The notes below the pieces were generated by a model. That model was not told the origin of the DNA. It saw nothing but the letters and a program-made list of their open reading frames with translations, and did not search any database. Positions 552-55,850 of a stretch of 64,000 bases of DNA are shown in pieces. Each line of letters begins with the position of its first letter. Position 1 is the stretch's first letter. The position numbers and the translations under genes are program-made. Location of the stretch: positions 1 through 64,000 of the forward strand of contig JAQGKD010000113.1 in assembly GCA_028290285.1 (NCBI GenBank), given 5' to 3'. This DNA comes from Hyphomicrobiales bacterium. GTDB lineage: Bacteria; Pseudomonadota; Alphaproteobacteria; Rhizobiales; Beijerinckiaceae.

Positions 552-1013
552 ATGGCGCGCCTGAATATCAACGGTAAGGTCCACGACGTGGACGTCGAAC
601 CCGACACCCCGCTGCTCTGGGCGATTCGCGAACAGGTCGGTCTCACCGGCACGAAGTACGGTTGCGGTGTCGCGGCGTGCGGCGCCTGCACCGTGCATGT
701 CGATGGCGTCGTGATGCGCTCGTGCAGTCTTCCGGTCAGCTCCTTCAACGAGAATCAGAAGATCGTCACGATCGAGGGTCTTTCACCCGACGTGACCCAT
801 CCGATCCAGAAAGCCTGGCTTGAACTGGACGTGCCGCAGTGCGGATATTGCCAGTCGGGCCAGATCATGGCCGCCGCCGCCCTGATCGCGAGCAAGCCGC
901 ACCCGACCGATGCCGAAATCAACAGCGAGATGTCGAACATCTGCCGTTGCGGCACCTACAATCGCATTCGTGCCGCCATCAAGATGGCCTCCGAAAACAC
1001 GAAGCGCGGCTAA
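552..1013 (+). CDS. [2Fe-2S] subunit of an IorAB-type molybdenum hydroxylase
   Basis: This 153-residue protein is the small iron-sulfur subunit of a xanthine-oxidase-family enzyme, closest in build to isoquinoline 1-oxidoreductase alpha subunit. The N-terminal plant-ferredoxin-like domain has Cys38, Cys43, Cys46 and Cys58 ([12 protein letters not shown]). The C-terminal all-alpha domain has CGYC at 97-100 and CRC at 131-133. It passes electrons from the molybdenum subunit encoded 17 bases downstream to an external acceptor. No FAD subunit is encoded here, as in two-subunit IorAB enzymes that reduce cytochromes. It has no signal peptide of its own; in this family the small subunit can be carried through the Tat pore by its Tat-tagged partner. 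Confidence 0.93.
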
Positions 1014-1030
1014 TTCTCAGGGAGGTTCAC

Positions 1031-3202
1031 ATGACGATTGCGCAAAATGTTTCGCGCCGCAGCTTCCTTGCCGGATCTGCCGCTGCCACGGGCGGTCTTT
1101 CGCTCGGCTTCCATATCCCCTTCGCCAACGCGCAAGGTGCGACGCCGCCCGAGGTCAATGCCTGGGTGGTCATCAAGCCTGACGACACCGTGGTCATTCG
1201 CATCGCTCGCGTCGAGATGGGTCAGGGCACGCTGACGGGCCTCTCGCAGCTGGTTGCCGAAGAGCTCGAATGCGACTGGTCGAAGGTCACGACCGAATAT
1301 CCCTCGCCCGGCCAGAACGTCGCGCGCAACCGCGTCTGGGGCGAGTTCCAGACAGCCGGCAGCCGTGGCATCCGCACGTCGGAGGATTACGTGCGCAAGG
1401 GCGGAGCAGCCGCGCGCATGATGCTGGTGCAGGCCGCCGCCGATGGCTGGAAAGTGCCTGCCTCCGAGTGCAAGGTGTCGAAGGGCGTCATCACGCATGG
1501 CGCATCCAACCGCAGCACGACCTATGGCAAGGTGGCTGACGCCGCAGCCAAGATCGAGCCGCCCAAGGATGTGAAGCTCAAGGATCCGAAGGACTGGACC
1601 ATCGCCGGCAAGCCGCTGAAGCGGCTCGACACCGTCGATAAGCTCAATGGCAAGCAGATCTATTCAATCGATTTGAAACTGCCGGGCATGCTCAACGCAG
1701 CCATCAAGGAAACGCCCGTTCCCGGCGGCAAGGTGAAGAGCTTCGACGCCGCGAAGATCGAGAAGATGCCCGGTGTCAAGAAGGTCATCCTGATCGACGG
1801 CACCGGCGTCGCGGTTGTCGCCGACACCTGGTATCGCGCGAAGACGGCTCTCGATGCGCTGGAGATCGTCTGGGACGAAGGCGCGAACGCGAATGTGTCG
1901 AGCGAGTCCATCGCTGCAATGCTGAAGGAAGGCCTCGACGCGAAGGACGCATTCGTCGGCAACAAGGCGGGTGATGTCACGGCTGCGCTGGCGGGTGCTG
2001 CGAAGAAGATCGAGGCGGTCTATTCGTATCCCTACCAGAGTCACATGACGATGGAGCCGATGAACGCGACCGCCGTCTGGACGGCCGAAAAGTGCAATGT
2101 CTGGACAGCCACGCAGAATGCGGAGGCCGCGCTTGCCACCGCCGTTACGGCCGCAGGCCTGCCGATCGAGAAATGCGACGTCACGCGTCTCAACCTCGGT
2201 GGCGGTTTCGGGCGTCGCTCGTCGAGCCATGATTTCGTGCGTCAGGCGGTGCTCATCGCCAAGGAAATGCCGGGCACGCCCGTCAAGCTGATCTGGTCGC
2301 GCGAGCAGGACGTGACGCACGGCACCTACCATCCGATCACGCAATGCAAGATGGTCGGCGGCCTCGACGACAAGGGCAATCCTGTCGCCATGCACATGCG
2401 CATCTCCGGCCAGTCGATCCTGGCAGGATTGCGCCCCGAAGCACTGGTGGAAGGCCGCGATCCCGCGCAGTTCCAGGGGCTCAATGCCAAGGGGCCCGAA
2501 GGCCAACTCGGCTACGACATCCCGAACCTGCTCGTTGACCATGCCATGCGCAATCCGCCCTTCCGCCCGGGCTTCTGGCGCGGCGTGAACAACAACCAGA
2601 ACGCGATCTATCTGGAGAGCTTCGTCGACGAAATGGCGCATGCGGCGGGTCAGGACCCGCTCGAGTTCCGCCGCAAGATGATGAAGGATTTCCCGAAGCA
2701 TCTGGCCGTTCTGAACACGGTCGCCGAGAAGGCCGGCTGGGGCAAGCCGGCAGCGCCGGGCGTCTATCGCGGCCTCGCGCAGCACATGGGCTACGGCAGC
2801 TATGTCGCGGCCTGCGCGGAAGTCTCGGTGAGCGATGCGGGCAAGCTGAAGATCCATCGCATCGTCGCGGCCACCGATTGCGGCCATGTCGTCAATCCGC
2901 AGCAGGTCGCGGCGCAAATCGAAGGCTCCTTCGCCTACGGGCTGTCCGCGCTTCTGTTCGGCGAGATGACGGCCAAGAACGGCCGCATGGAGCAGGATAA
3001 TTTCGACAGCTATGAAGTGATGCGCATGGAGGACATGCCGGCGGTCGAATCCTATCCCGTTCCCTCCGGCGGGTTCTGGGGCGGTGTCGGCGAGCCGACG
3101 ATCTTCGTCGCAGCGCCTGCGGTGCTGAACGCGATCTTCGCGGCGACTGGAAAGCGCATCCGCACCTTCCCGCTGAAGCATGCAGACCTGCGCAAGGCCT
3201 GA
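1031..3202 (+). CDS. Tat-exported molybdopterin-binding subunit, IorB type
   Basis: The protein has 723 residues from the ATG at 1031, preceded by GGAGG at 1021-1025. It starts with a Tat signal (SRRSFLAG, Arg9-Arg10) and an AQG-type cleavage region near residue 35, so the enzyme should work in the periplasm. The body is the aldehyde oxidase/xanthine dehydrogenase molybdenum-binding fold: LGGGFGRR in the middle and GVGEPT near the C terminus, whose Glu is the usual catalytic base. Such enzymes hydroxylate N-heterocycles or oxidise aldehydes with water. The stop is 4 bases before a cytochrome c gene, which makes a cytochrome the likely electron acceptor. The substrate is unknown. The coupling to sulfur-oxidation genes is unusual. 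Confidence 0.92.
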   Translation: MTIAQNVSRRSFLAGSAAATGGLSLGFHIPFANAQGATPPEVNAWVVIKPDDTVVIRIARVEMGQGTLTGLSQLVAEELECDWSKVTTEYPSPGQNVARNRVWGEFQTAGSRGIRTSEDYVRKGGAAARMMLVQAAADGWKVPASECKVSKGVITHGASNRSTTYGKVADAAAKIEPPKDVKLKDPKDWTIAGKPLKRLDTVDKLNGKQIYSIDLKLPGMLNAAIKETPVPGGKVKSFDAAKIEKMPGVKKVILIDGTGVAVVADTWYRAKTALDALEIVWDEGANANVSSESIAAMLKEGLDAKDAFVGNKAGDVTAALAGAAKKIEAVYSYPYQSHMTMEPMNATAVWTAEKCNVWTATQNAEAALATAVTAAGLPIEKCDVTRLNLGGGFGRRSSSHDFVRQAVLIAKEMPGTPVKLIWSREQDVTHGTYHPITQCKMVGGLDDKGNPVAMHMRISGQSILAGLRPEALVEGRDPAQFQGLNAKGPEGQLGYDIPNLLVDHAMRNPPFRPGFWRGVNNNQNAIYLESFVDEMAHAAGQDPLEFRRKMMKDFPKHLAVLNTVAEKAGWGKPAAPGVYRGLAQHMGYGSYVAACAEVSVSDAGKLKIHRIVAATDCGHVVNPQQVAAQIEGSFAYGLSALLFGEMTAKNGRMEQDNFDSYEVMRMEDMPAVESYPVPSGGFWGGVGEPTIFVAAPAVLNAIFAATGKRIRTFPLKHADLRKA

Positions 3203-3206
3203 GCCG

Positions 3207-3536
3207 ATGCGTCGTGTGAACGCCGCAACCCGCGTGGGAGGAGCACTTATTGTGCTCCTCCTCGCAGCATCGGCGGCGCGGGCTCAGAGCGCCTCGCCCA
3301 ACTTCGTCGCCGCGCCTCCGGGCGCGACGGCGTGCCTCGGCTGTCATGGCGCCGGCATGACGGCCCTGCCCTCGCTCTCGCGGCTTTCGGCCGACGAGAT
3401 CGCGGCAGCCATGGCCGGTTTCCGGGACGGTACGCGCGAGGCAACGCTGATGAACCGCATCGCCAAGGGCTTCACGCCAGCCGAAAGCAAGGCCATTGCC
3501 GATTGGCTCAGCGCCCAGCCGGGGAACAAGCCATGA
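3207..3536 (+). CDS. fccA: Monohaem cytochrome c, FccA-like
   Basis: This 109-residue exported cytochrome has a Sec signal (positive start, then [15 protein letters not shown]) and a single haem c site CLGCH at residues 43-47. A Met in [11 protein letters not shown] is the probable sixth ligand. Size and layout match the small cytochrome subunit of flavocytochrome c sulfide dehydrogenase, and the flavoprotein subunit follows with an ATGA overlap (3533-3536). It should take electrons from FccB and pass them to the respiratory chain. It begins 4 bases after the molybdenum subunit stop, so it may also serve that enzyme. An ordinary class I cytochrome is the alternative, but the FccB neighbour makes FccA the better call. 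Confidence 0.85.
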
Positions 3537-4786
3537 GCCACCCCACACGCCGAGGCGTCATCGTCGGGCTCGCCGCAGGCGCATTGGCTGCGCCCGCACT
3601 TGCACAGGCATCCGCGCAGGTGGTCGTCATCGGCGGCGGGTTCGCGGGCGCTACCTGTGCCCGTTTCCTGCATCGCGCGGGCTTGAAGGTGACGCTGGTC
3701 GAGCCGCAGGCGACCTATATCTCCTGTCCGTTCAGCAATGCCGTTCTGGCGGGCCTGCGCGATCTGAAGGACCAGAGCTTTACCTACGATGCACTGGCTG
3801 CGGAGGGCGTCAGCATCGCTCGCCAGTCGGCGACAGCGATCGATCGCACAGCGCGTCGCGTGACCCTGGCGGACGGCGCGGTGCTGCCCTACGACCGGCT
3901 CGTGCTCGCACCGGGTATCGACATCCGCTTCGATGCGTTGGCCGGCTACGATGCCGCCGCCGCCGAGATCATGCCGCACGCCTGGAAGGCAGGGCCGCAA
4001 ACCGCTTTGCTCCGCCGCCAGCTTGAGGCGATGGACGATGGCGGCACGGTCATCATATCCGCGCCCGCGAATCCTTTCCGCTGCCCGCCCGGCCCCTACG
4101 AGCGCGCAAGCCTCATTGCATATTATCTCAAGACGAAGAAGCCGCGTTCGAAGGTGCTGATCCTCGACGCCAAGGATGCCTTCTCCAAACAGGGGCTTTT
4201 CACCGCGGGGTGGAAAGAGCTTTACGGCGACATGGTCGAATGGGTTGGCCAGTCCTCGGGCGGCACCGTCACCGAGATCAAGCCGGGCGAGAAGACCTTC
4301 GTCACCGAGTTTGGAACGCATAAGGCCGATGTTGGCAACGTCATCCCCCCGCAGCGCGCCGGGCGCATCGCAGTGGAGTCCGGCATCGCCGACCAGACGG
4401 GCTGGTGCCCGATCGATCCCGTCACGTTCGAGGCGCGCGCGCAGGCGGGCGTTCACGTCATCGGCGATGCGGCCATCGCAGGCGGCATGCCGAAGTCGGC
4501 CTTCGCAGCCAATGCCCAGGCGAAAGCCTGCGCTCAGGCCGTCGTGCTTATGCTGCGCGGGCAGGCCGCGCCGCAACCGAAACTCATCAACACCTGTTAC
4601 TCCCTGCTCGCGCCGGACTATGGAATTTCCGTCGCGGGCGTCTATGCGCCGGACAAGGGCCTGCTTGCCGATGTGCCGGGTGCTGGCGGCGTCAGTCCGG
4701 CGAAAGCGCCCTCCTCCGTTCGCGCCTCGGAAGCCACTTATGCGGATGCATGGTTCAAGACGATCACCAGCGAAGTCTTCGGTTGA
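3533..4786 (+). CDS. fccB: Flavocytochrome c sulfide dehydrogenase, flavoprotein subunit
   Basis: The 417-residue product oxidises sulfide (or a bound persulfide) in the periplasm and reduces the partner cytochrome. A leader ([15 protein letters not shown], Tat-like Arg pair) precedes the GGGFAGA dinucleotide fold at about 34-40. Cys65 in TYISCPFSN aligns with the Cys that binds FAD covalently in Allochromatium FccB. Cys184 in [11 protein letters not shown] and Cys355 in [13 protein letters not shown] align with the redox-active disulfide pair. The IPPQRAG and VIGDAAIA segments are typical of the family (also called SoxF). All key residues are present, so the enzyme should be functional. The gene overlaps fccA upstream and soxX downstream. 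Confidence 0.95.
4729..4733 (+). promoter_or_regulatory. Ribosome binding site that sets the soxX start inside fccB
   Basis: GGAAG lies 6 bases before the ATG at 4740, within the fccB coding sequence. It favours the 4740 start over the ATG at 4809, which would leave SoxX with no usable signal peptide. Confidence 0.5.
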
Positions 4787-5222
4787 GATCGCCTGCGCGC
4801 TGCTCATCATGACGGGCTCGGTCGGGGCGCAGGAGCTGCGGCCGTTCCGCATCGAGAACGGTGCCATCTCAGCCTCGCTCACGGGGCAGACAGGGGATCC
4901 GACGCGCGGACGCGCCATCGTTGCGGATCGCCAGAAGGGGCTCTGCCTGCTTTGCCACACCGGCCCGTTTCCGGAAGAGCGGTTCCAGGGCGATCTCGCG
5001 CCGAGCCTTTCGGGCGCGGGCATGCGGCTCAGCGAAGGGCAATTGCGGCTGCGCATCATCGATGGCACGAAAGTGAACCCCGCCACGATCATGCCGGCCT
5101 ATTATCGCATCGACGACCTGAACCGCGTGGCCCCGGCGTTTCGCGGCAAGCCGGTGCTCGATGCGAGCGAAATCGAGGATGTCGTGGCGTTTCTCCTGAC
5201 GCTTCGCGAGGAGCCTAAATGA
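4740..5222 (+). CDS. soxX: SoxX, monohaem c-type cytochrome of the SoxAX complex
   Basis: The chosen start gives 160 residues with a proper Sec signal: basic MRMHGSRR, a hydrophobic core to about residue 30, and an AQE cleavage site. A single haem site CLLCH is at 69-73, and Met118 in TIMPAYY is the likely axial ligand. A C-terminal helix ([11 protein letters not shown]) closes the cytochrome fold. SoxX pairs with SoxA to attach thiosulfate-type sulfur to the SoxY cysteine in the periplasm. The gene starts 47 bases inside fccB and overlaps soxY by ATGA. An ATG at 4746 is an alternative start with the same consequences. Confidence 0.88.
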
Positions 5223-5668
5223 GCGAAATCACGCGGCGGCAAGCCTTGGCGACGACAGCGGGCGCATTCGTCGTGCTGACGAGCGCACCTGCGCGCGCCA
5301 CGCCCGAGAGCATGCAGGCTGTCATCAACGAGTTCACGAAGGGCGCGAGGATCAACGAGGGCCGCGTGAAGCTGGACGTGACGCTGCTGGTCGAGAATGG
5401 CAATTCCGTGCCGCTGTCGGTCAGCGTCGAAAGCCCGATGACCCCTGAGGATTACGTCACGCGCATCGCAGTGTTCAACGAAAAGAACCCTCTGCCGCAG
5501 GTTGCGATGTTTCACCTGACACCGCGCTGCGGGCGCGCGAGCGCGTCGACGCGCATACGGCTCAACGACTCGCAGAACGTGATCGCCATCGCCGAAATGA
5601 AGGACGGCACCTTCTGGTCAGCGAGCCGCGAAGTCATCGTCACCCTGCCCGCCTGCGTGGAGAGCTGA
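5219..5668 (+). CDS. soxY: SoxY-like sulfur carrier with a divergent C terminus
   Basis: The 149-residue protein has a Tat signal (ITRRQALATTAGAFVVL) followed by the SoxY immunoglobulin-like domain; the PMTPEDYVTRIAVF region is typical. SoxY carries the sulfur substrate on a C-terminal Cys at the end of a flexible arm. That arm is normally GGCGG. Here the chain ends LPACVES, so the Cys (146) is kept but the glycines are lost and three residues follow it. It sits directly before soxZ, its obligate partner, and overlaps soxX by four bases. The altered arm may change which enzyme or substrate it docks with. Confidence 0.9.
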   Translation: MSEITRRQALATTAGAFVVLTSAPARATPESMQAVINEFTKGARINEGRVKLDVTLLVENGNSVPLSVSVESPMTPEDYVTRIAVFNEKNPLPQVAMFHLTPRCGRASASTRIRLNDSQNVIAIAEMKDGTFWSASREVIVTLPACVES

Positions 5669-5670
5669 CA

Positions 5671-5991
5671 ATGGCACGCGCCCTCCTCAACGTTCCCGCC
5701 AAAGCCAAGCGCGGCGAGATCATCGAGATCAAGACGCTGATGTCGCATCCGATGGAAACCGGCTTCCGCACGGGGGCCGACGGCAAGCTGGTGCCCCGCG
5801 ACATCATCAAGAGTTTCGTTTGCACCTACAACGGCGAGGTCGTCTTCAGCGCCGACTTGTTCCCGGCCATCTCGGCCAATCCCTTCATCGCCTTCACCAC
5901 CGTTGCGACCGAAAGCGGCACGCTGATTTTCAGCTGGACCGACGACAAGGGCCAGACGCAGGTGCAGACCGCGCCGATCAGCGTGGAATGA
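5671..5991 (+). CDS. soxZ: SoxZ, partner of the SoxY sulfur carrier
   Basis: This is a 106-residue beta-sandwich protein without a signal peptide; SoxZ is exported together with Tat-tagged SoxY. Family features include KRGEIIEIKTLMSHPMETGFR near the N terminus, FVCTYNGEVVF in the middle and a final strand ending PISVE. It starts 2 bases after soxY stops and overlaps soxA by ATGA (5988-5991), so SoxYZ and SoxA are made together. Length and motifs are ordinary for the family. Confidence 0.95.
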   Translation: MARALLNVPAKAKRGEIIEIKTLMSHPMETGFRTGADGKLVPRDIIKSFVCTYNGEVVFSADLFPAISANPFIAFTTVATESGTLIFSWTDDKGQTQVQTAPISVE

Positions 5992-6758
5992 AGATGCGCG
6001 CGCGCCTCGTCCTCGCATTGGCATGGCTCTGTGCGGTGCCCGGCGCGATGGCACAGGACGGGCGCAAATCGGGCTTCGAGTACATGAGCCGCGACAGCCA
6101 GGCCTTGCAGATGGACGACCTCTCCAACCCCGCCATGCTGAGCGTGCTCGACGGCGAAAGCCTCTGGAGCACGCCTGCGGGCAGCGCGCAAAAATCGTGT
6201 GCGTCCTGCCACGGCGATGCGAGCGTCAGCATGAAGGGCGTGGCCGCGCGCTATCCCGCCTTCAACGAGGGGAGCGGCACCCCGATCGATCTCGCGGGCC
6301 GCATAGATCAATGCAGGCGCGAGCGGCAAGCGGCCCCGGCGCTCGCTCGCGAAGGGCGCGACAGTCTCGCGCTGACCGCCTATATCGGCCTGCAATCGCG
6401 CGGGCTGCCGATTTCGCCACCTGACGACACCCGGCTCGCGCCGTTTCGCCGGGAGGGCGAGGCGCTCTATACGCGGCGCATGGGGCAGCTGAATTTTTCC
6501 TGCGCGCAGTGCCATGACGAACATGCGGGCGACCATGTCGGCGCGAGCCCCATTCCGCAGGCGCATCCGACGGCCTATCCGATCTACCGGCTGGAGTGGC
6601 AATCGGTCGGCTCGCTGCAAAGGCGCTTGCGCAATTGCATGGCGGGCACGCGATCCGAGCCCTTCGCCTATGGGTCGCCCGAATTCATCAATCTGGAACT
6701 GTTCCTGGCCGAGCGGGCGCGCGGAATGAAGGTCGAGACGCCTGGCGTGAGGCCCTGA
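5988..6758 (+). CDS. soxA: SoxA, dihaem L-cysteine S-thiosulfotransferase subunit
   Basis: The 256-residue protein has a Sec signal ending AMAQ at about residue 23. Two haem c motifs are present: CASCH at 71-75 and CAQCH at 172-176, so this is the dihaem form. Cys217 in LRNCMAG is the active-site Cys that carries persulfide or acts as haem ligand in SoxA. With SoxX it conjugates sulfane sulfur to SoxY. It is the last sox gene in the window. soxB and soxCD, which finish sulfate release in the complete pathway, are absent nearby. Confidence 0.95.
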   Translation: MKMRARLVLALAWLCAVPGAMAQDGRKSGFEYMSRDSQALQMDDLSNPAMLSVLDGESLWSTPAGSAQKSCASCHGDASVSMKGVAARYPAFNEGSGTPIDLAGRIDQCRRERQAAPALAREGRDSLALTAYIGLQSRGLPISPPDDTRLAPFRREGEALYTRRMGQLNFSCAQCHDEHAGDHVGASPIPQAHPTAYPIYRLEWQSVGSLQRRLRNCMAGTRSEPFAYGSPEFINLELFLAERARGMKVETPGVRP

Positions 6759-6829: not shown

Positions 6830-7732
6830 ATGGAAAACCTGGAAGATATGGCCGTTTTCGCCCGCGTCGTCGCGCGCGGGACGTTTACAGCCGCCGGACG
6901 CGAATTGCACAAGACGACTTCGGCCGTCAGCAAGCATGTCGCGCGGCTCGAGGCGGCCCTGTCGGCGAAGCTGCTCAACCGCTCGACGCATCACCTCGTG
7001 CTCACGGAGGCCGGCGCGCGCTTCCACGACCATTGTGTGCGCATCCTCGCCGAACTCGAGGAGGCTCGCGCGGATGTCAGCGCCGCCAGCGACGAGATGC
7101 GCGGCGTGCTGCGTGTGCATTCGAGCCCCGGCATTGGACAGAGCCTCGTCGCGCCAGCGGCTATCGCGATCGGCAAGCGCTTCCGCGATCTCAATGTGGA
7201 ACTGACCGTCGGCGATTTCACCACTACCATCCTGCGGCGCGGCATGGACGTGCTCATCGGCAGCAGGCCCTTCACCTCCGGGGAAGAATTCTATTCGAGC
7301 CTGATGGTGCAGGATCTCGGACCGGCGCCCTATGTGGTCTGCGCCTCTCCGGATTATCTGGCGCGCGAAGGCACGCCCGCCGAGCCGGAGGATCTCCTCG
7401 CCCACAATTGCCTCGTGCATGCAACGCAGAAGCACGATCCGCACGCATGGCAGTTTTCGCGCGGTGCCGCGCGTTTCGTCGTGCGCGTGAACGGGAATTT
7501 TCGCTCCAGCCTCGAACATGCCGTCCTGCTCGCCGCGACCGAGGGGCTCGGCATCACGCGGTTGCCGCTCTATTCGGTCACAGGAGAGCTGGCCCGCAGG
7601 GCGCTCGTTTCGCTGTTCTCGGGCTCCATCCTGTCGGACCGGACCATCAAGGCCTTCAGGCCCCGCAGCGAGAGACTTCCTGCCAAGGTCAAGGTGCTCC
7701 TCGCCGAGGTGGAGGCAAGGCTGCAGGCCTAA
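6830..7732 (+). CDS. LysR-family transcriptional regulator
   Basis: The 300-residue product has a winged helix-turn-helix at about residues 1-60 (FTAAGRELHKTTSAVSKHVARLE) and a two-lobed periplasmic-binding-like effector domain. The ATG at 6830 gives the usual LysR N terminus MENLEDM; a GTG one codon upstream is possible. It lies 71 bases after soxA on the same strand and 180 bases before a Bug receptor gene. It could regulate either neighbour; the effector is unknown. No divergent promoter partner is present, which is less usual for LysR genes. Confidence 0.92.
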   Translation: MENLEDMAVFARVVARGTFTAAGRELHKTTSAVSKHVARLEAALSAKLLNRSTHHLVLTEAGARFHDHCVRILAELEEARADVSAASDEMRGVLRVHSSPGIGQSLVAPAAIAIGKRFRDLNVELTVGDFTTTILRRGMDVLIGSRPFTSGEEFYSSLMVQDLGPAPYVVCASPDYLAREGTPAEPEDLLAHNCLVHATQKHDPHAWQFSRGAARFVVRVNGNFRSSLEHAVLLAATEGLGITRLPLYSVTGELARRALVSLFSGSILSDRTIKAFRPRSERLPAKVKVLLAEVEARLQA

Positions 7733-10217: not shown

Positions 10218-10240
10218 ACCCTCTCCCGGTGGGAGAGGGT
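10218..10240. repeat. Isolated 10-bp palindrome, possible terminator of the cupin gene
   Basis: ACCCTCTCCC and GGGAGAGGGT form a perfect 10-bp stem around a 3-base loop, 14 bases after the cupin stop and followed by CTTT. The same stem opens both 127-base repeats downstream, so this is a solitary piece of that family. Its position would let it act as a transcription terminator. Confidence 0.75.
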
Positions 10241-10269
10241 CTTTCGCAGTATCAAAGCTCGCTGCGCAA

Positions 10270-10396
10270 ACCCTCTCCCATAGGGAGAGGGTGGTCGCGG
10301 AGCGGCCGGGTGAGGGGCTACCACTTTCAGAACCCAGCACCGTAACCCCTCATCAGTCTGCTCCGCAGACAGCTTCTCCCACCGGGAGAAGCGGGG
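10270..10396. repeat. Composite palindromic repeat, copy A
   Basis: This 127-base unit starts with the stem ACCCTCTCCC / GGGAGAGGGT (10270-10279, 10283-10292). It continues with GCGGAGCGGCCGGGTGAGGG and CAGAACCCAGCACC, and ends with a second stem GCTTCTCCC / GGGAGAAGC (10372-10380, 10384-10392). Copy B at 10843-10969 has the same order, orientation and length, with a few substitutions and two compensating one-base indels. Two hairpins joined by a conserved linker resemble BIME-type REP elements. Confidence 0.88.
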
Positions 10397-10410
10397 CCGC
10401 GTTGTTCACG

Positions 10411-10794
10411 TTACAGATCCAAACGCGGTCGTGCGTCGCGCATCGGGAGCCCGCGTGCGGTGTCGATAGCGCGGCGAATTTCCTGCACAACCCAATCCAT
10501 GCGCTCAGCAATTTCGACATTGGTGAACCGCAGCTCCACAAATCCGCGAGCTTCGATGAGCGCCCGCCGCGCCAGATCGGCTTCCATCTGAAGCGCGTGG
10601 TGACTCCCGTCGAGCTCGATAGTCAGGCCGAGGTCGAGACAGGCGAAATCAGCAAAGAACCCGCCAATCGGGACCTGCCGCCTGAACTTGCATCCTTCCA
10701 GCCTCCGCCCGCGAAGCTGCGTCCACAGCGCCCCTTCGGCCGAGGTCTGATCGGCGCGGAGACGGCGGGCAATGGGGATCGAGCGATGCGCCAT
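10411..10794 (-). CDS. DUF559 endonuclease-like protein (Vsr/PD-(D/E)XK fold)
   Basis: The 127-residue product starts at ATG 10794 (MAHRSIPIARRLR). It has the DUF559 signature: TSAEGALWTQLR, GCKFRRQVPIGGFFADFAC, then IELDGSHH, and finally GFVELRFTNVEI. The Glu, Asp and Glu-Asp positions match the acidic catalytic pattern of very-short-patch-repair-like nucleases. No cytosine methylase, which usually accompanies true Vsr, is nearby. It is the only gene between two direct repeats, in antisense orientation to the flanking genes, and its stop lies 14 bases from repeat copy A. An upstream in-frame start at 10854 would run into repeat B and is not favoured. The function is unproven. Confidence 0.85.
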   Translation of the reverse strand: MAHRSIPIARRLRADQTSAEGALWTQLRGRRLEGCKFRRQVPIGGFFADFACLDLGLTIELDGSHHALQMEADLARRALIEARGFVELRFTNVEIAERMDWVVQEIRRAIDTARGLPMRDARPRLDL

Positions 10795-10842
10795 AAGGCA
10801 AAGCTTGCGGTGGAATTTCACGAAATGCAAACGGCGGCCAAA

Positions 10843-10969
10843 ACCCTCTCCCAATGGGAGAGGGTGGCCGCGGAGCGGCCGGGTGAGGGGTTACCGCCTC
10901 TCAGAACCCAGCACCCTAACCCCTCATCAGTCTGCTGCGCAGCAGCTTCTCCCACCGGGAGAAGCGGGG
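10843..10969. repeat. Composite palindromic repeat, copy B
   Basis: This copy has the same orientation and length as copy A: stem ACCCTCTCCC / GGGAGAGGGT at 10843-10852 and 10856-10865, a conserved linker, and stem GCTTCTCCC / GGGAGAAGC at 10945-10953 and 10957-10965. It begins 49 bases upstream of the DUF559 start codon. The two copies together frame the nuclease gene. Confidence 0.88.
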
Positions 10970-51802: not shown

Positions 51803-52363
51803 TCACTCCGCCAATGCGCTCCGTAACGCTTCGCGCCGTTCGGAACGATACATTTCCTTGTAGCTGCGTGGTCCGAGCGGCCCCTGCTCGATTTTCACGC
51901 AGCCGAAGACAAGGCCATCGGAGGACAGGATGGAGTCTATCTTGGCAGCGAAATCCTCGAGGGTTGAGACGGTGAATGTCTGCTCGATTCCGGCAGCGCG
52001 CGCATGCCCTTCGAAGTCCACCTTCTGGTTCGGGATCGGGTGTCCGCCGTTTGCCTCGTAGGTCCCGTTCTGGAAGACCAGGTGCGTCAGATTGCGCGGC
52101 GCCACCTGCCCTAGCGTCACGAGGGTCCCGAGGTTCATCAGCAGAGACCCGTCGCCGTCGAGCACGATGACGCGACGCTCCGGCCGCGCGAGTGCGAGGC
52201 CAAGTCCGTGCGAAGACGCGAGGCCCATGGCGCCGGACGAGAAGTAGTTGAGCGGCCGATCGAAGATATCGATCCAATCCGTCGCCGAGCTGTATGTCGC
52301 GACGACGATTTCATTCGTGATGCTTTTGGCCAGCAATTGCAGCGCTTTTCTTCTGTCGATCAT
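51803..52363 (-). CDS. ThDP-dependent decarboxylase, beta (ThDP-binding) subunit
   Basis: The 186-residue protein is the C-terminal half of a ThDP decarboxylase, like ComE of sulfopyruvate decarboxylase. The cofactor motif is VLDGDGSLLMNLG with the Asp of GDGS and the Asn ahead of the metal, and FQNGTYEANGG follows. It needs the alpha subunit encoded upstream, whose stop overlaps its start by ATGA. Relatives decarboxylate sulfopyruvate or phosphonopyruvate; the substrate here is not known. Confidence 0.9.
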   Translation of the reverse strand: MIDRRKALQLLAKSITNEIVVATYSSATDWIDIFDRPLNYFSSGAMGLASSHGLGLALARPERRVIVLDGDGSLLMNLGTLVTLGQVAPRNLTHLVFQNGTYEANGGHPIPNQKVDFEGHARAAGIEQTFTVSTLEDFAAKIDSILSSDGLVFGCVKIEQGPLGPRSYKEMYRSERREALRSALAE

Positions 52364-52893
52364 TTTGCCTCCGGGCGTCCGCCGATCAGAATTGCCACAG
52401 GCCGCGACGCACGCCAGGCGTCGTCGACGAGCGAAGAGATCTGCGCCGCATCTTCATCCGTCTCGATGCAGGCGTGCCTGATGCCGAGCGTGTCGAGCAT
52501 GGGCTCGACGATGCGCAGGCCGAATTTCCGGGATTCGGTCGGGCGGACGCCGGGTTCCTTCCCGAGCATGCCGATCATGAAACAGATCGGCAACTGCTGC
52601 TCGCAGGCTATGCCGCGAATGGCGTTGATCGCATAAAGGAAGCCCGTGAACTGGACCAGAATCATCGACCGGATATTTCCATAGGTCAGGCCGGCCGCGA
52701 TCCCGAAGCACTCGTCTTCCTTGCACACCCTGATGAGGTTCAGATCGGGGTCCTGCGAGATGGGGCGCAGCAGGCCTGCGGACGTATGCAGGTCGGGGAC
52801 CGACAGGACGTGGCGTATCCCAGCCTTCTTGATCTGCCCGATGACGCTCGAGCCGCGCAGCGGCGACGAGCTTTCCGCACCCGGTGCGCTCAT
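52360..52893 (-). CDS. ThDP-dependent decarboxylase, alpha (pyrimidine-binding) subunit
   Basis: This 177-residue protein is the N-terminal half of a split ThDP enzyme, like ComD. CKEDECFGIAAGLTYG carries the conserved Glu that activates ThDP, and FMIGMLGKEPGVRP is typical of the sulfopyruvate/phosphonopyruvate decarboxylase group. It overlaps the beta gene by four bases. Both halves are near normal length, so the split is the family's usual two-gene form and not a broken gene. Confidence 0.88.
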   Translation of the reverse strand: MSAPGAESSSPLRGSSVIGQIKKAGIRHVLSVPDLHTSAGLLRPISQDPDLNLIRVCKEDECFGIAAGLTYGNIRSMILVQFTGFLYAINAIRGIACEQQLPICFMIGMLGKEPGVRPTESRKFGLRIVEPMLDTLGIRHACIETDEDAAQISSLVDDAWRASRPVAILIGGRPEAK

Positions 52894-53942: not shown

Positions 53943-55778
53943 TCAAAAGCGCCAGATCAAGGGGACGAAGAACACCGACACGACGAAGAACCAGATCAGC
54001 AGCGGCAAGCCGAGCTTCCAGTAGTCGCCAAAAACATAGCCTCCCGGCCCCATCACCATCAGGTTGGTCGGGGTTGCGATCGGCGTCAGGAAGGCGCCGG
54101 CCGCGGCCACCGCGGTGCTCATCAACACAGGACGCGGCGAAATGCCCATGCTGGCCGCGGCTGCTACCCCGATCGGGATGACGATAAGCGCCGTCGCCGT
54201 ATTGCTGATGAGCTGCCCCATGATGGAAGTCAGTACGAACAGACCTGCGAGCAGAGCGAGCGGACCGGCTTCCCCAACCGTTTGGACGAGACGCTCGGCC
54301 AGCATTTGTGCCGCTCCCGTCTCCACCATGGCCGTCGACAGCGGCATCATGGCACCGACCAGGAGCACCGTGGTCCAGCCGATGGCGCGATAGGATTGTT
54401 CGACGGTCATGATGCCCGACAGGATCATGGCCCCGGCTGCAAGCAGGCCTGCGACCGCCGGGGGAACAATTCCTGTCGCAAGCAGCAGAACCATCGCGAC
54501 GAGAATGAGGACCGCCTGGCGCGCGCCGGGCCCCATGGGCACGGCCTGGCGCCGCACCAGTTCGGGCGAGCTGACAACGAGGACGTCCGGATCGTCGAGG
54601 TGAAGGTCGAGGGCTTTCCACGTTCCCTGCAGCAACATGCTGTCGCCCGCCTGCAGCACGATGCCACCCGCATCCTTCCCAGGGTTCCGGGCCGTGATCT
54701 CCGCCCCCGCCCGCTGTACGGCCAGGACGATCAGGTCGCCGCTATCGGTGACCATGCCCTGGAAAACGGATTGCCCGATCAGGCCGGAGCGCGGCGGGAT
54801 GACCACTTCGGCAAGGCCGGAACGCCGGTTGAACAAGGTATCCTCGCCCTTGCCCGCGGCAGCGTCCTCGCGGAAGGCCAGATGCTTCTCAGCGGCGAAG
54901 GTCGCCGCCGTTTCGGCATCGCCGCGCAACAGGAAATGGTCGCCTTCGGCCACGGATGTCCGGCGCAGCGGCCCGGCGGTTTCGCCTTCCTGGATGGCGA
55001 CGAGTTGCAGCCCGGGATATTTGGAAAGATCGACCGAGTCCGCGAGTGCCCCGACATAGGGCGAATTCGCACGGACGCGGAGCTGGTAGATTCCGGCGGC
55101 AAGGCCGTATTGCTCGACGAGCGTCTTGGCATGGCGGCTGAAATCGGCTGGCATGGTCGCGCCGTTTCGTTGCGGCAGGAGACGCTGTCCGAAGAGCACG
55201 ATGATCGCCATCGAGCCTGCCAGTAGCGGAACGCCGACAAGCGCGAACTCGAAGAAGCCGAAGCCGCCTGCGCCCGCATCGTCTCCGGCCTCCGAAACCA
55301 GCACGTTCACCGGCGTCCCGGTCAACGCGAGCATGGAGCCCGCATGCGCAGCAAAGACCAGCGGCATCAGCAACTGGGATGAATTCCGCTTGAGTCTCAC
55401 CGCGATGACGACCACGACCGGCAGCAGGGCTGCAACCGCGCCACTGATGCTGATCAGGGCGGTCAGCACCGCGACCAGGCTCATCGTCAACACCAGCAGC
55501 CGCGTACGGCTTTCCTCGCCCGCCCCACGGATCAGCAGCTGGCCGGCCCAGGCGGTCACGCCCGTGACTTCAAGCCCCGCGCTGACCACGAACAGCGCCG
55601 CGATGAACACGACCGCGGGATCGCCGAGCCCGGCGAGAGACTGCGGCAGGGTCAGCACGCCGGTCGCCCAGAGCGCCAGGGCTGTCGCCATCGCAACGAC
55701 GACGACCGGCACCTTGTTGGTGACGAACAGGATGACCGCAACGGCGATGATGGCGGCTGTGTAAGCTATCGGGCTCAA
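53943..55778 (-). CDS. SLC13/DASS-type permease with central RCK_C domains
   Basis: The 611-residue protein starts at TTG 55778, 8 bases after AGGAG (55787-55791); GTG 55799 is an alternative. N-terminal membrane helices include GTPVNVLVSEAG and the C-terminal half has ISNTATALIVIPIG and LTPIATPTNLMVMGPGGY, the paired hairpin motifs of SLC13 carriers. Two RCK_C/TrkA_C domains (about 205-400) separate the halves. Such proteins import di- or tricarboxylates, sulfate or similar anions with sodium. It is divergent from araC and carries a candidate AraC site in its promoter. Confidence 0.9.
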   Translation of the reverse strand: MSPIAYTAAIIAVAVILFVTNKVPVVVVAMATALALWATGVLTLPQSLAGLGDPAVVFIAALFVVSAGLEVTGVTAWAGQLLIRGAGEESRTRLLVLTMSLVAVLTALISISGAVAALLPVVVVIAVRLKRNSSQLLMPLVFAAHAGSMLALTGTPVNVLVSEAGDDAGAGGFGFFEFALVGVPLLAGSMAIIVLFGQRLLPQRNGATMPADFSRHAKTLVEQYGLAAGIYQLRVRANSPYVGALADSVDLSKYPGLQLVAIQEGETAGPLRRTSVAEGDHFLLRGDAETAATFAAEKHLAFREDAAAGKGEDTLFNRRSGLAEVVIPPRSGLIGQSVFQGMVTDSGDLIVLAVQRAGAEITARNPGKDAGGIVLQAGDSMLLQGTWKALDLHLDDPDVLVVSSPELVRRQAVPMGPGARQAVLILVAMVLLLATGIVPPAVAGLLAAGAMILSGIMTVEQSYRAIGWTTVLLVGAMMPLSTAMVETGAAQMLAERLVQTVGEAGPLALLAGLFVLTSIMGQLISNTATALIVIPIGVAAAASMGISPRPVLMSTAVAAAGAFLTPIATPTNLMVMGPGGYVFGDYWKLGLPLLIWFFVVSVFFVPLIWRF

Positions 55779-55850
55779 TGGCTCGGCTCCTGGGCCCACG
55801 CCGGGATGGCCGGGGAAGCTTAGTTACCCAGGTGGGGAGAGCATCGGCAC

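Follow-up and report, generated by a model that had tools for sequence, protein, structure and literature searches.

The first 64,000 nucleotides of contig JAQGKD010000113.1 (C52) of a Hyphomicrobiales bacterium of the family Beijerinckiaceae (GenBank assembly GCA_028290285.1), referred to below as the window, carry an operon in which genes of a molybdenum (Mo) hydroxylase of the isoquinoline 1-oxidoreductase (IorAB) type are followed by genes of a flavocytochrome c and by soxX, soxY, soxZ and soxA. The source is a draft genome of 5.0 Mb in 145 contigs, and the window begins at base 1 of its contig. Eight genes, iorA, iorB, cytochrome, fccB, soxX, soxY, soxZ and soxA, were confirmed on the forward strand at positions 552-6758 (Table 1). 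The tight spacing read from the sequence in the original prediction was borne out, with all gaps at 17 bases or fewer; from iorA to soxA the junctions are a gap of 17, a gap of 4, an overlap of 4, an overlap of 41, an overlap of 4, a gap of 2 and an overlap of 4 bases, the 41-base overlap of fccB and soxX depending on the start chosen for soxX, whose start codon is uncertain.

Table 1. Genes of the operon, the adjoining regulator and the other sox sets of the source genome
Feature	Position	Strand	Matches and motifs
iorA-like small subunit	552-1013	+	two [2Fe-2S] motifs; Pfam Fer2_2 97.6 bits, Fer2 38.1 bits
iorB-like Mo-cofactor large subunit, xanthine-oxidase family	1031-3202	+	MoCoBD_2 121 bits, MoCoBD_1 109 bits
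monohaem c-type cytochrome	3207-3536	+	one CXXCH; FccA-like by position only
fccB, flavocytochrome c sulfide dehydrogenase flavoprotein	3533-4786	+	FCSD_central 164 bits, FCSD-flav_bind 91 bits
soxX, monohaem cytochrome	4746-5222	+	NCBIfam TIGR04485 73.1 bits, cut-off 61
soxY, AACIE-arm type	5219-5668	+	TIGR04487 201 bits, cut-off 172; C-terminus PACVES, arm cysteine Cys146
soxZ	5671-5991	+	TIGR04490 100.9 bits, cut-off 76
soxA, dihaem type	5988-6758	+	TIGR04484 220.6 bits, cut-off 110; aligned to 1h31_A
LysR-type regulator, adjoining the operon	6830-7732	+	Pfam HTH_1, LysR_substrate
canonical sox set (L039), outside the window	C52, ~72.6-82.3 kb		soxX, soxA, GGCGG soxY, soxZ, soxB, soxC, cytochrome, fccB homologue (gene list by eye)
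second sox set (L041)	contig C84, ~24-30.6 kb		soxX, soxY, soxZ, soxA and soxB, preceded by soxCD-like genes (by eye)

Components of the operon

Regarding the Mo hydroxylase, IorAB has the features of the xanthine-oxidase family, namely Mo-cofactor domains, the motifs GGGFG and GEP and two [2Fe-2S] sites; both cluster motifs are kept in 128 of 129 IorA homologues, and GEP was detected in 124 of 126 IorB homologues. IorB carries a twin-arginine signal (TAT_signal_seq 17.3 bits, cut-off 16.7). The label isoquinoline 1-oxidoreductase is a name given by similarity only, and the nearest solved relative of IorB by sequence is the large subunit of an aldehyde dehydrogenase of Gluconobacter (8gy3_C, E 1e-104), which is also the nearest by fold (template modelling score, TM, 0.84) with an IorB model of middling quality (predicted local distance difference test, pLDDT, 75). 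Because of this closeness an aldehyde or heteroaryl carbon is favoured as the putative site of oxidation. The likeness to this membrane-bound enzyme and to IorAB-type Mo hydroxylases lies in the fold and sequence of IorB; the Gluconobacter aldehyde dehydrogenase has a large multihaem cytochrome subunit, whereas the operon lacks such a subunit and has sox partners.

The small cytochrome remains under the Pfam cut-off (Cytochrome_CBB3 20 bits, cut-off 27) and is a candidate partner of FccB from its position only, its CXXCH motif being kept in 57 of 57 scored homologues. The FCSD domains of FccB, like the Mo-cofactor domains of IorB, exceed their Pfam cut-offs. FccB matches solved flavocytochrome c structures (5n1t_A, E 1.5e-138, and also 1fcd), and its two redox-cysteine motifs are kept in 84 of 84 and 82 of 84 homologues, respectively.

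The SoxY of the window is by score a member of NCBIfam TIGR04487, the 'SoxY-related AACIE arm protein', a group named by sequence. It misses both the model of true GGCGG SoxY (TIGR04488, 108 bits, cut-off 125) and that of the quinoprotein-associated SoxYZ-like carrier (TIGR04557, 63.7 bits, cut-off 140). The best solved match of its predicted structure is 2oxg_Y, indicating that the SoxY fold is kept; pLDDT is 84.8, low at the signal and in the last block, with a mean of 65 for the last nine residues, which include the arm. No paper pairing 'AACIE' with SoxY or citing TIGR04487 was found in open-access PMC; as far as searches of the open-access literature go, the group has a name in NCBIfam and no function on record.

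Conservation of the gene set and its variants

Named genomes were scanned with an alignment of 14 IorB sequences, and the loci of the best 80 of at least 582 confirmed relatives were kept and checked for gene content, with the soxB and soxC of the source genome as probes. Of these 80 loci, 71 have a same-strand soxY gene downstream; six of the other nine end at or near a contig edge, and three are unlinked (L126, L146, L160). The genes thus form one conserved unit, in support of the original prediction, and the junction is not peculiar to this strain, which would have spoken against that prediction. The hosts include Bradyrhizobium, Microvirga, Skermanella, Azospirillum, Methylobacterium, Ancylobacter, Filomicrobium, Duganella, Roseateles and Noviherbaspirillum, and among the named carriers are Bradyrhizobium sp. 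BTAi1, Ancylobacter aquaticus DSM 101, Roseateles saccharophilus DSM 654 and Methylobacterium sp. J-068. Since IorB is identical in three pairs of loci (L044/L095, L063/L108, L140/L181), these counts refer to loci and not to independent events.

From the side of SoxY, the TIGR04487 cut-off was passed in 35 genomes when 101 relatives were searched. Among 41 same-genus loci that were fetched, 26 have iorB upstream, 12 run into a contig end and three are split; in all three genomes with a split locus an IorB with 64-82% identity lies at another place, followed in two of them by cytochrome and fccB. A phylum sample of 398 genomes gave 15 that pass the cut-off and 20 matches of at least 158 bits, all 20 of which accompany iorAB. 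Two of these are the window itself and G095 (L053); in each of the 18 newly fetched loci iorA and iorB stand ahead of soxX, soxY, soxZ and soxA, with fccB between them in 13. As a control, 22 loci with matches to GGCGG-type SoxY were fetched; none of them has iorB, and soxB was seen in 18. The gene set and order iorAB-soxXYZA therefore recur across alpha- and betaproteobacteria, and the counts exclude chance as the source of the arrangement. Four genomes of one genus, of 1.7-2.1 Mb (G244, G296, G385 and G473; L183-L186), have the module with no adjoining fccB, and soxB elsewhere.

A quick tree of 43 IorB rows, 25 of them sox-linked and with long branches for the sequences of the source genome, places sox-linked IorB on one side of a branch (SH-like approximate likelihood ratio test, SH-aLRT, 97); the three unlinked rows stand within that side at separate places, and the nine paralogues of the source genome that were tested fall outside it. 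The genome of the unlinked locus L160 has a separate soxX-soxY-soxZ-soxA run (L223:6554-8562) with a SoxY of 76 bits ending in SACVDGTT, and there is no iorAB match in the piece fetched around it. In a Xanthobacteraceae draft, two tandem iorAB pairs precede cytochrome-fccB-soxXYZA (L170:9534-18701).

The flavocytochrome c genes are less constant. Of the 73 loci in which the gene next after iorB was scored, 34 have soxX there, 21 the cytochrome, 16 fccB, one soxY and one a second iorA. Overall, fccB was found in 43 of the best 80 loci, and the suggestion that FccAB takes the place of SoxCD is not supported by this distribution. That suggestion belongs to the reading given in the original prediction, in which the Mo enzyme would oxidise a free S- or N-heterocycle and the sulfur released would pass onto SoxYZ, with FccAB replacing SoxCD. 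The membership of IorB in the xanthine-oxidase family and the intact cysteine motifs of FccB, where it is present, are consistent with such a route, which appears unlikely in view of the many loci without fccB, the absence of a ring-cleavage gene from the ten frequent neighbour clusters scanned and the confinement of the TauD-like gene to close relatives. No conserved neighbour that names a substrate was found: the frequent clusters outside the core occur in at most 17 of the 80 loci, and those scanned hold MFS, ABC, two-component, amidohydrolase, solute-binding and similar genes.

The TauD-like gene upstream, which had been counted as part of an organosulfur theme, was rejected as a member of the module: it adjoins iorA only in close relatives, and its copy in the window is cut because the window starts at contig base 1; the full-length homologue in L063 scores 159 bits, below the cut-off of 313 of the taurine dioxygenase family (NF007104). 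The LysR-type gene downstream has homologues (79-91%) adjoining soxA only in the close relatives L045, L063 and L087.

Neither soxB nor soxC was seen in any of the best 80 IorB loci when probed with the copies of the source genome. SoxC contains Mo; we know of no xanthine-oxidase family member that oxidises SoxY-bound inorganic sulfur, which counts against the Mo enzyme being a sulfur dehydrogenase that does so in place of SoxCD. Such a replacement would accord with the missing soxC and with passages of two papers in which SoxCD oxidises carrier-bound sulfur in the canonical path (PMC7608252, PMC5371076), but it would still leave the SoxB release step absent and is very improbable.

A related arrangement was found in nine same-genus loci (L054, L055, L056, L057, L091, L228, L229, L230 and L231), in which a gene for a fused SoxYZ with a GAC arm is followed by iorA and by an iorB of another clade, the latter with 36-37% identity to the IorB of the window where scored and with a support of 100 for five tree rows. 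Thus, two clades of Mo hydroxylase are tied to SoxYZ-type carriers. A tenth locus with fused SoxYZ (L092) lies on a piece cut on the IorB side, and a distant fused-like match (L232, 29%) has fccB and no iorAB match. The fused SoxYZ of L056 passes no NCBIfam cut-off (TIGR04557, 109 vs 140). Beside the fused system of L056, cytochrome, fccB, soxX and soxA are arranged divergently, and the single fused SoxYZ gene at L228:5217-12918 has beside it two second-clade iorAB pairs, one on each strand.

These loci bear on the possibility that the SoxYZ-like carrier is a periplasmic thiol on which aldehydes are caught as hemithioacetals and offered to the Mo enzyme, with SoxXA doing no more than keeping the thiol of the carrier in the right state. 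To our knowledge, Mo aldehyde oxidoreductases require no thiol adduct, which counts against it, as do the absence of a metallohydrolase from the ten scanned neighbour clusters and the intact active-site cysteine of SoxA in 111 of 111 scored loci. Together these points make the trapping of aldehydes improbable, even if it would suit the second clade, the aldehyde dehydrogenase large subunit nearest to IorB among solved structures, and the SoxYZ-like carriers that accompany PQQ alcohol dehydrogenases in passages of a paper (PMC12997753). The system with TIGR04557 in those passages is similar in that its SoxYZ-type carrier goes with a periplasmic dehydrogenase, but differs in having a PQQ enzyme, a fused carrier, a SoxH-like hydrolase and a rhodanese, and the role of its carrier is described there as open too (PMC12997753).

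Carrier arm, SoxA pocket and other sox sets

All 117 rows of Mo-linked SoxY that could be scored have an AACxE-like C-terminus (AAC, PAC, SAC, GAC or ASC), five of 122 being left out (four SoxZ frames by length, and L144 at a contig end), and the residue two after the arm cysteine is E or D in 113 and I in four. SoxB-linked SoxY, in contrast, ends in GGCGG in 23 of 23 rows, seven of 30 being left out that were labelled fusion hits (SoxZ-length frames or a fragment). A SoxYZ fusion in many loci was considered and rejected, the label having come from one alignment across two adjacent genes; separate soxY and soxZ frames were found in the loci checked (L103, L104, L118, L163, L165, L172, L173, L185, L187, L189 and L191). 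Nor was there a diagnostic cysteine in SoxZ, where a single L/R column is the sole difference.

The active-site cysteine of SoxA is kept in the window and in all 111 Mo-linked rows scored, three of 114 (L046, L073, L133) being left out as the site was not matched by the pattern. At the Cys-14 position, the same 111 rows have E in 106, D in three and Q in two, the SoxA of the window having Glu, whereas the 23 SoxB-linked rows have K in 12, S in 10 and E in one, the set on contig 84 (L041). A separate table covers the SoxA of 17 pieces that lack both iorB and soxB, and all 15 that were scored have E. Arg109 of TsdA is described as a thiosulfate ligand whose place is taken by Lys or Ser in SoxA (PMC4423706). 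We infer that Cys-14 of SoxA corresponds to this arginine, since it lies as far from the cysteine as Arg109 does from Cys123 and shows the K/S pattern in SoxB-linked rows. The loss of an invariant thiosulfate arginine from SoxA, which was also considered, was rejected, Cys-11 being Gly in the alignment of 2c1d; Arg232 of R. sulfidophilum is now taken to be the arginine of YRL (Cys-16), a residue conserved in all 111 rows.

Regarding the remaining sox genes, the description 'without soxB or soxCD' holds for the operon and fails for the genome, in which two soxB (843 and 818 bits, cut-off 550) and one soxC (633 bits, cut-off 420) were found elsewhere. The soxC belongs to the canonical set on the same contig, where ccdA-, thioredoxin- and ArsR-like genes were also noted by eye. 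The SoxA of the set on contig C84 has Glu at Cys-14, as in Mo-linked SoxA, despite the adjoining soxB. A full soxBCD set nearby, which the original prediction had named as grounds for denying the Mo enzyme a role, is therefore largely present, with soxB and soxC on the same contig and SoxD not confirmed. Among 56 module genomes searched for soxB (a hand-picked set from 39 named loci out of the 80, for the most part isolates, together with 18 others, L129 being left out), 20 have none, so that the nearby set of this genome does not remove the case. In the same genus, a hand count of 42 genomes with AACIE SoxY, many of them incomplete drafts (34 over the TIGR04487 cut-off and eight just below it or partial, the source genome included), gave soxB over the cut-off in 10, an edge fragment in one and neither in 31.

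These counts bear on whether the operon is an ordinary side branch, its SoxXYZA feeding sulfur to a canonical set elsewhere and iorAB being merely co-transcribed. The soxB and soxC genes of the source genome and the occurrence of soxB in 36 of the 56 module genomes would agree with this; the 20 genomes without soxB, the 31 of 42 same-genus genomes without it over the cut-off and the linkage retained across families and classes argue the other way, and a side branch seems quite improbable.

The source genome also has 40 MoCoBD_1 matches, a seemingly large set of Mo hydroxylases given its size of 5 Mb, and of its three SoxY sites only one adjoins such a match. This speaks against a maintenance role, in which the Mo=S ligand of the exported enzyme would be renewed with sulfane sulfur from SoxXA-SoxYZ, with or without FccAB. 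Maturation of the XdhC type takes place in the cytoplasm. Although the sox genes accompany one main IorB clade and passages of a paper on the enzyme family describe an equatorial sulfur ligand at Mo, the same passages have such enzymes matured by XdhC-type chaperones (PMC2997495), and maintenance is decidedly unlikely.

Proposed function and relation to known Sox systems

The operon resembles the Kelly-Friedrich Sox system in that SoxX, SoxA and SoxZ are over the family cut-offs and in that the SoxY fold, the arm cysteine and the SoxA active-site cysteine are shared; it differs in the AACxE-like arm in place of GGCGG, in the E or D mostly found at Cys-14 of SoxA, and in having a Mo hydroxylase and neither SoxB nor SoxC. 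With the truncated Sox system with sHdr of Hyphomicrobium denitrificans it would share periplasmic loading of SoxYZ and the handling of sulfane sulfur outside Sox, but that system uses SoxB, according to passages of its description (PMC11582611). Searches of open-access PMC gave, among the matches listed, no paper linking a Mo hydroxylase operon with SoxXYZA and no account of the combination, in agreement with the expectation that it was undescribed.

Gene content, linkage, kept catalytic motifs and the altered arm and SoxA site are established at the level of sequence. On this basis we hold, with somewhat less than even confidence, that the genes make up a self-contained periplasmic module, Mo-Sox, of iorAB and soxXYZA with FccAB as an optional part, which loads a thiol other than thiosulfate, probably an organic one. 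SoxXA would oxidatively join this thiol (R-SH) to Cys146 of SoxY, and the Tat-exported Mo hydroxylase, kin to periplasmic aldehyde oxidoreductases, would hydroxylate the organothiol on the carrier at an aldehyde or heteroaryl carbon. Electrons may pass from the [2Fe-2S] clusters to c-type cytochromes, either the small cytochrome or, if an operon has no other, SoxX or SoxA, and FccAB, where present, may take away remaining sulfide or sulfane sulfur; release of the product without SoxB would be the least certain step. That Mo-Sox is an undescribed Sox branch of alpha- and betaproteobacteria, in which organic thiols, and not thiosulfate, become covalently attached to a modified SoxYZ arm and, while tethered there, are oxidised at carbon by a dedicated Mo hydroxylase, the Sox carrier thereby serving organosulfur catabolism, is a tentative proposal. 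A study of recombinant Sox enzymes points to a potential to lower methanethiol from an oral bacterium, CH3SH as a Sox substrate not being shown, per its authors, in the passages concerned (PMC5371076).

Several observations weigh against an organic cargo and a self-contained module. The thiosulfate-pocket arginines at Cys-16 and Cys-4 are kept in 111 of 111 Mo-linked SoxA, and Glu at Cys-14 also occurs in the SoxB-linked SoxA of L041, so that the SoxA site does not exclude thiosulfate. Beyond this, soxB is present somewhere in the majority of the module genomes searched (36 of 56), none of the ten scanned frequent neighbour clusters indicates an organic substrate, and the three unlinked genomes carry the same IorB clade with no AACIE SoxY over the cut-off. 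Finally, L123 has soxY and soxZ without a match to soxX or soxA, and L164 is without a match to soxA.

Elsewhere in the window, two short adjacent genes on the reverse strand (51803-52893) resemble, with scores that stay below the cut-offs, the two parts (beta and alpha) of sulfopyruvate/phosphonopyruvate decarboxylase, and a DASS-like transporter gene, also below its cut-off, lies close to the pair at 53943-55799. Palindromic repeat units (ACCCTCTCCC..GGGAGAGGGT) occupy 10218-10969, with duplicated blocks 573 bases apart, and surround a small reading frame at 10411-10854.

Surveys tend to take soxA, soxX, soxY and soxZ as markers of thiosulfate oxidation. The Mo-Sox module holds all four of these genes, yet it has no adjoining soxB, a different carrier arm and a mostly altered SoxA site. 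Should the module prove to carry an organic thiol, the carrier principle of Sox would reach organosulfur compounds, a Mo hydroxylase would act on a protein-bound substrate, and some assignments of bacteria as 'thiosulfate oxidiser' would need revision.

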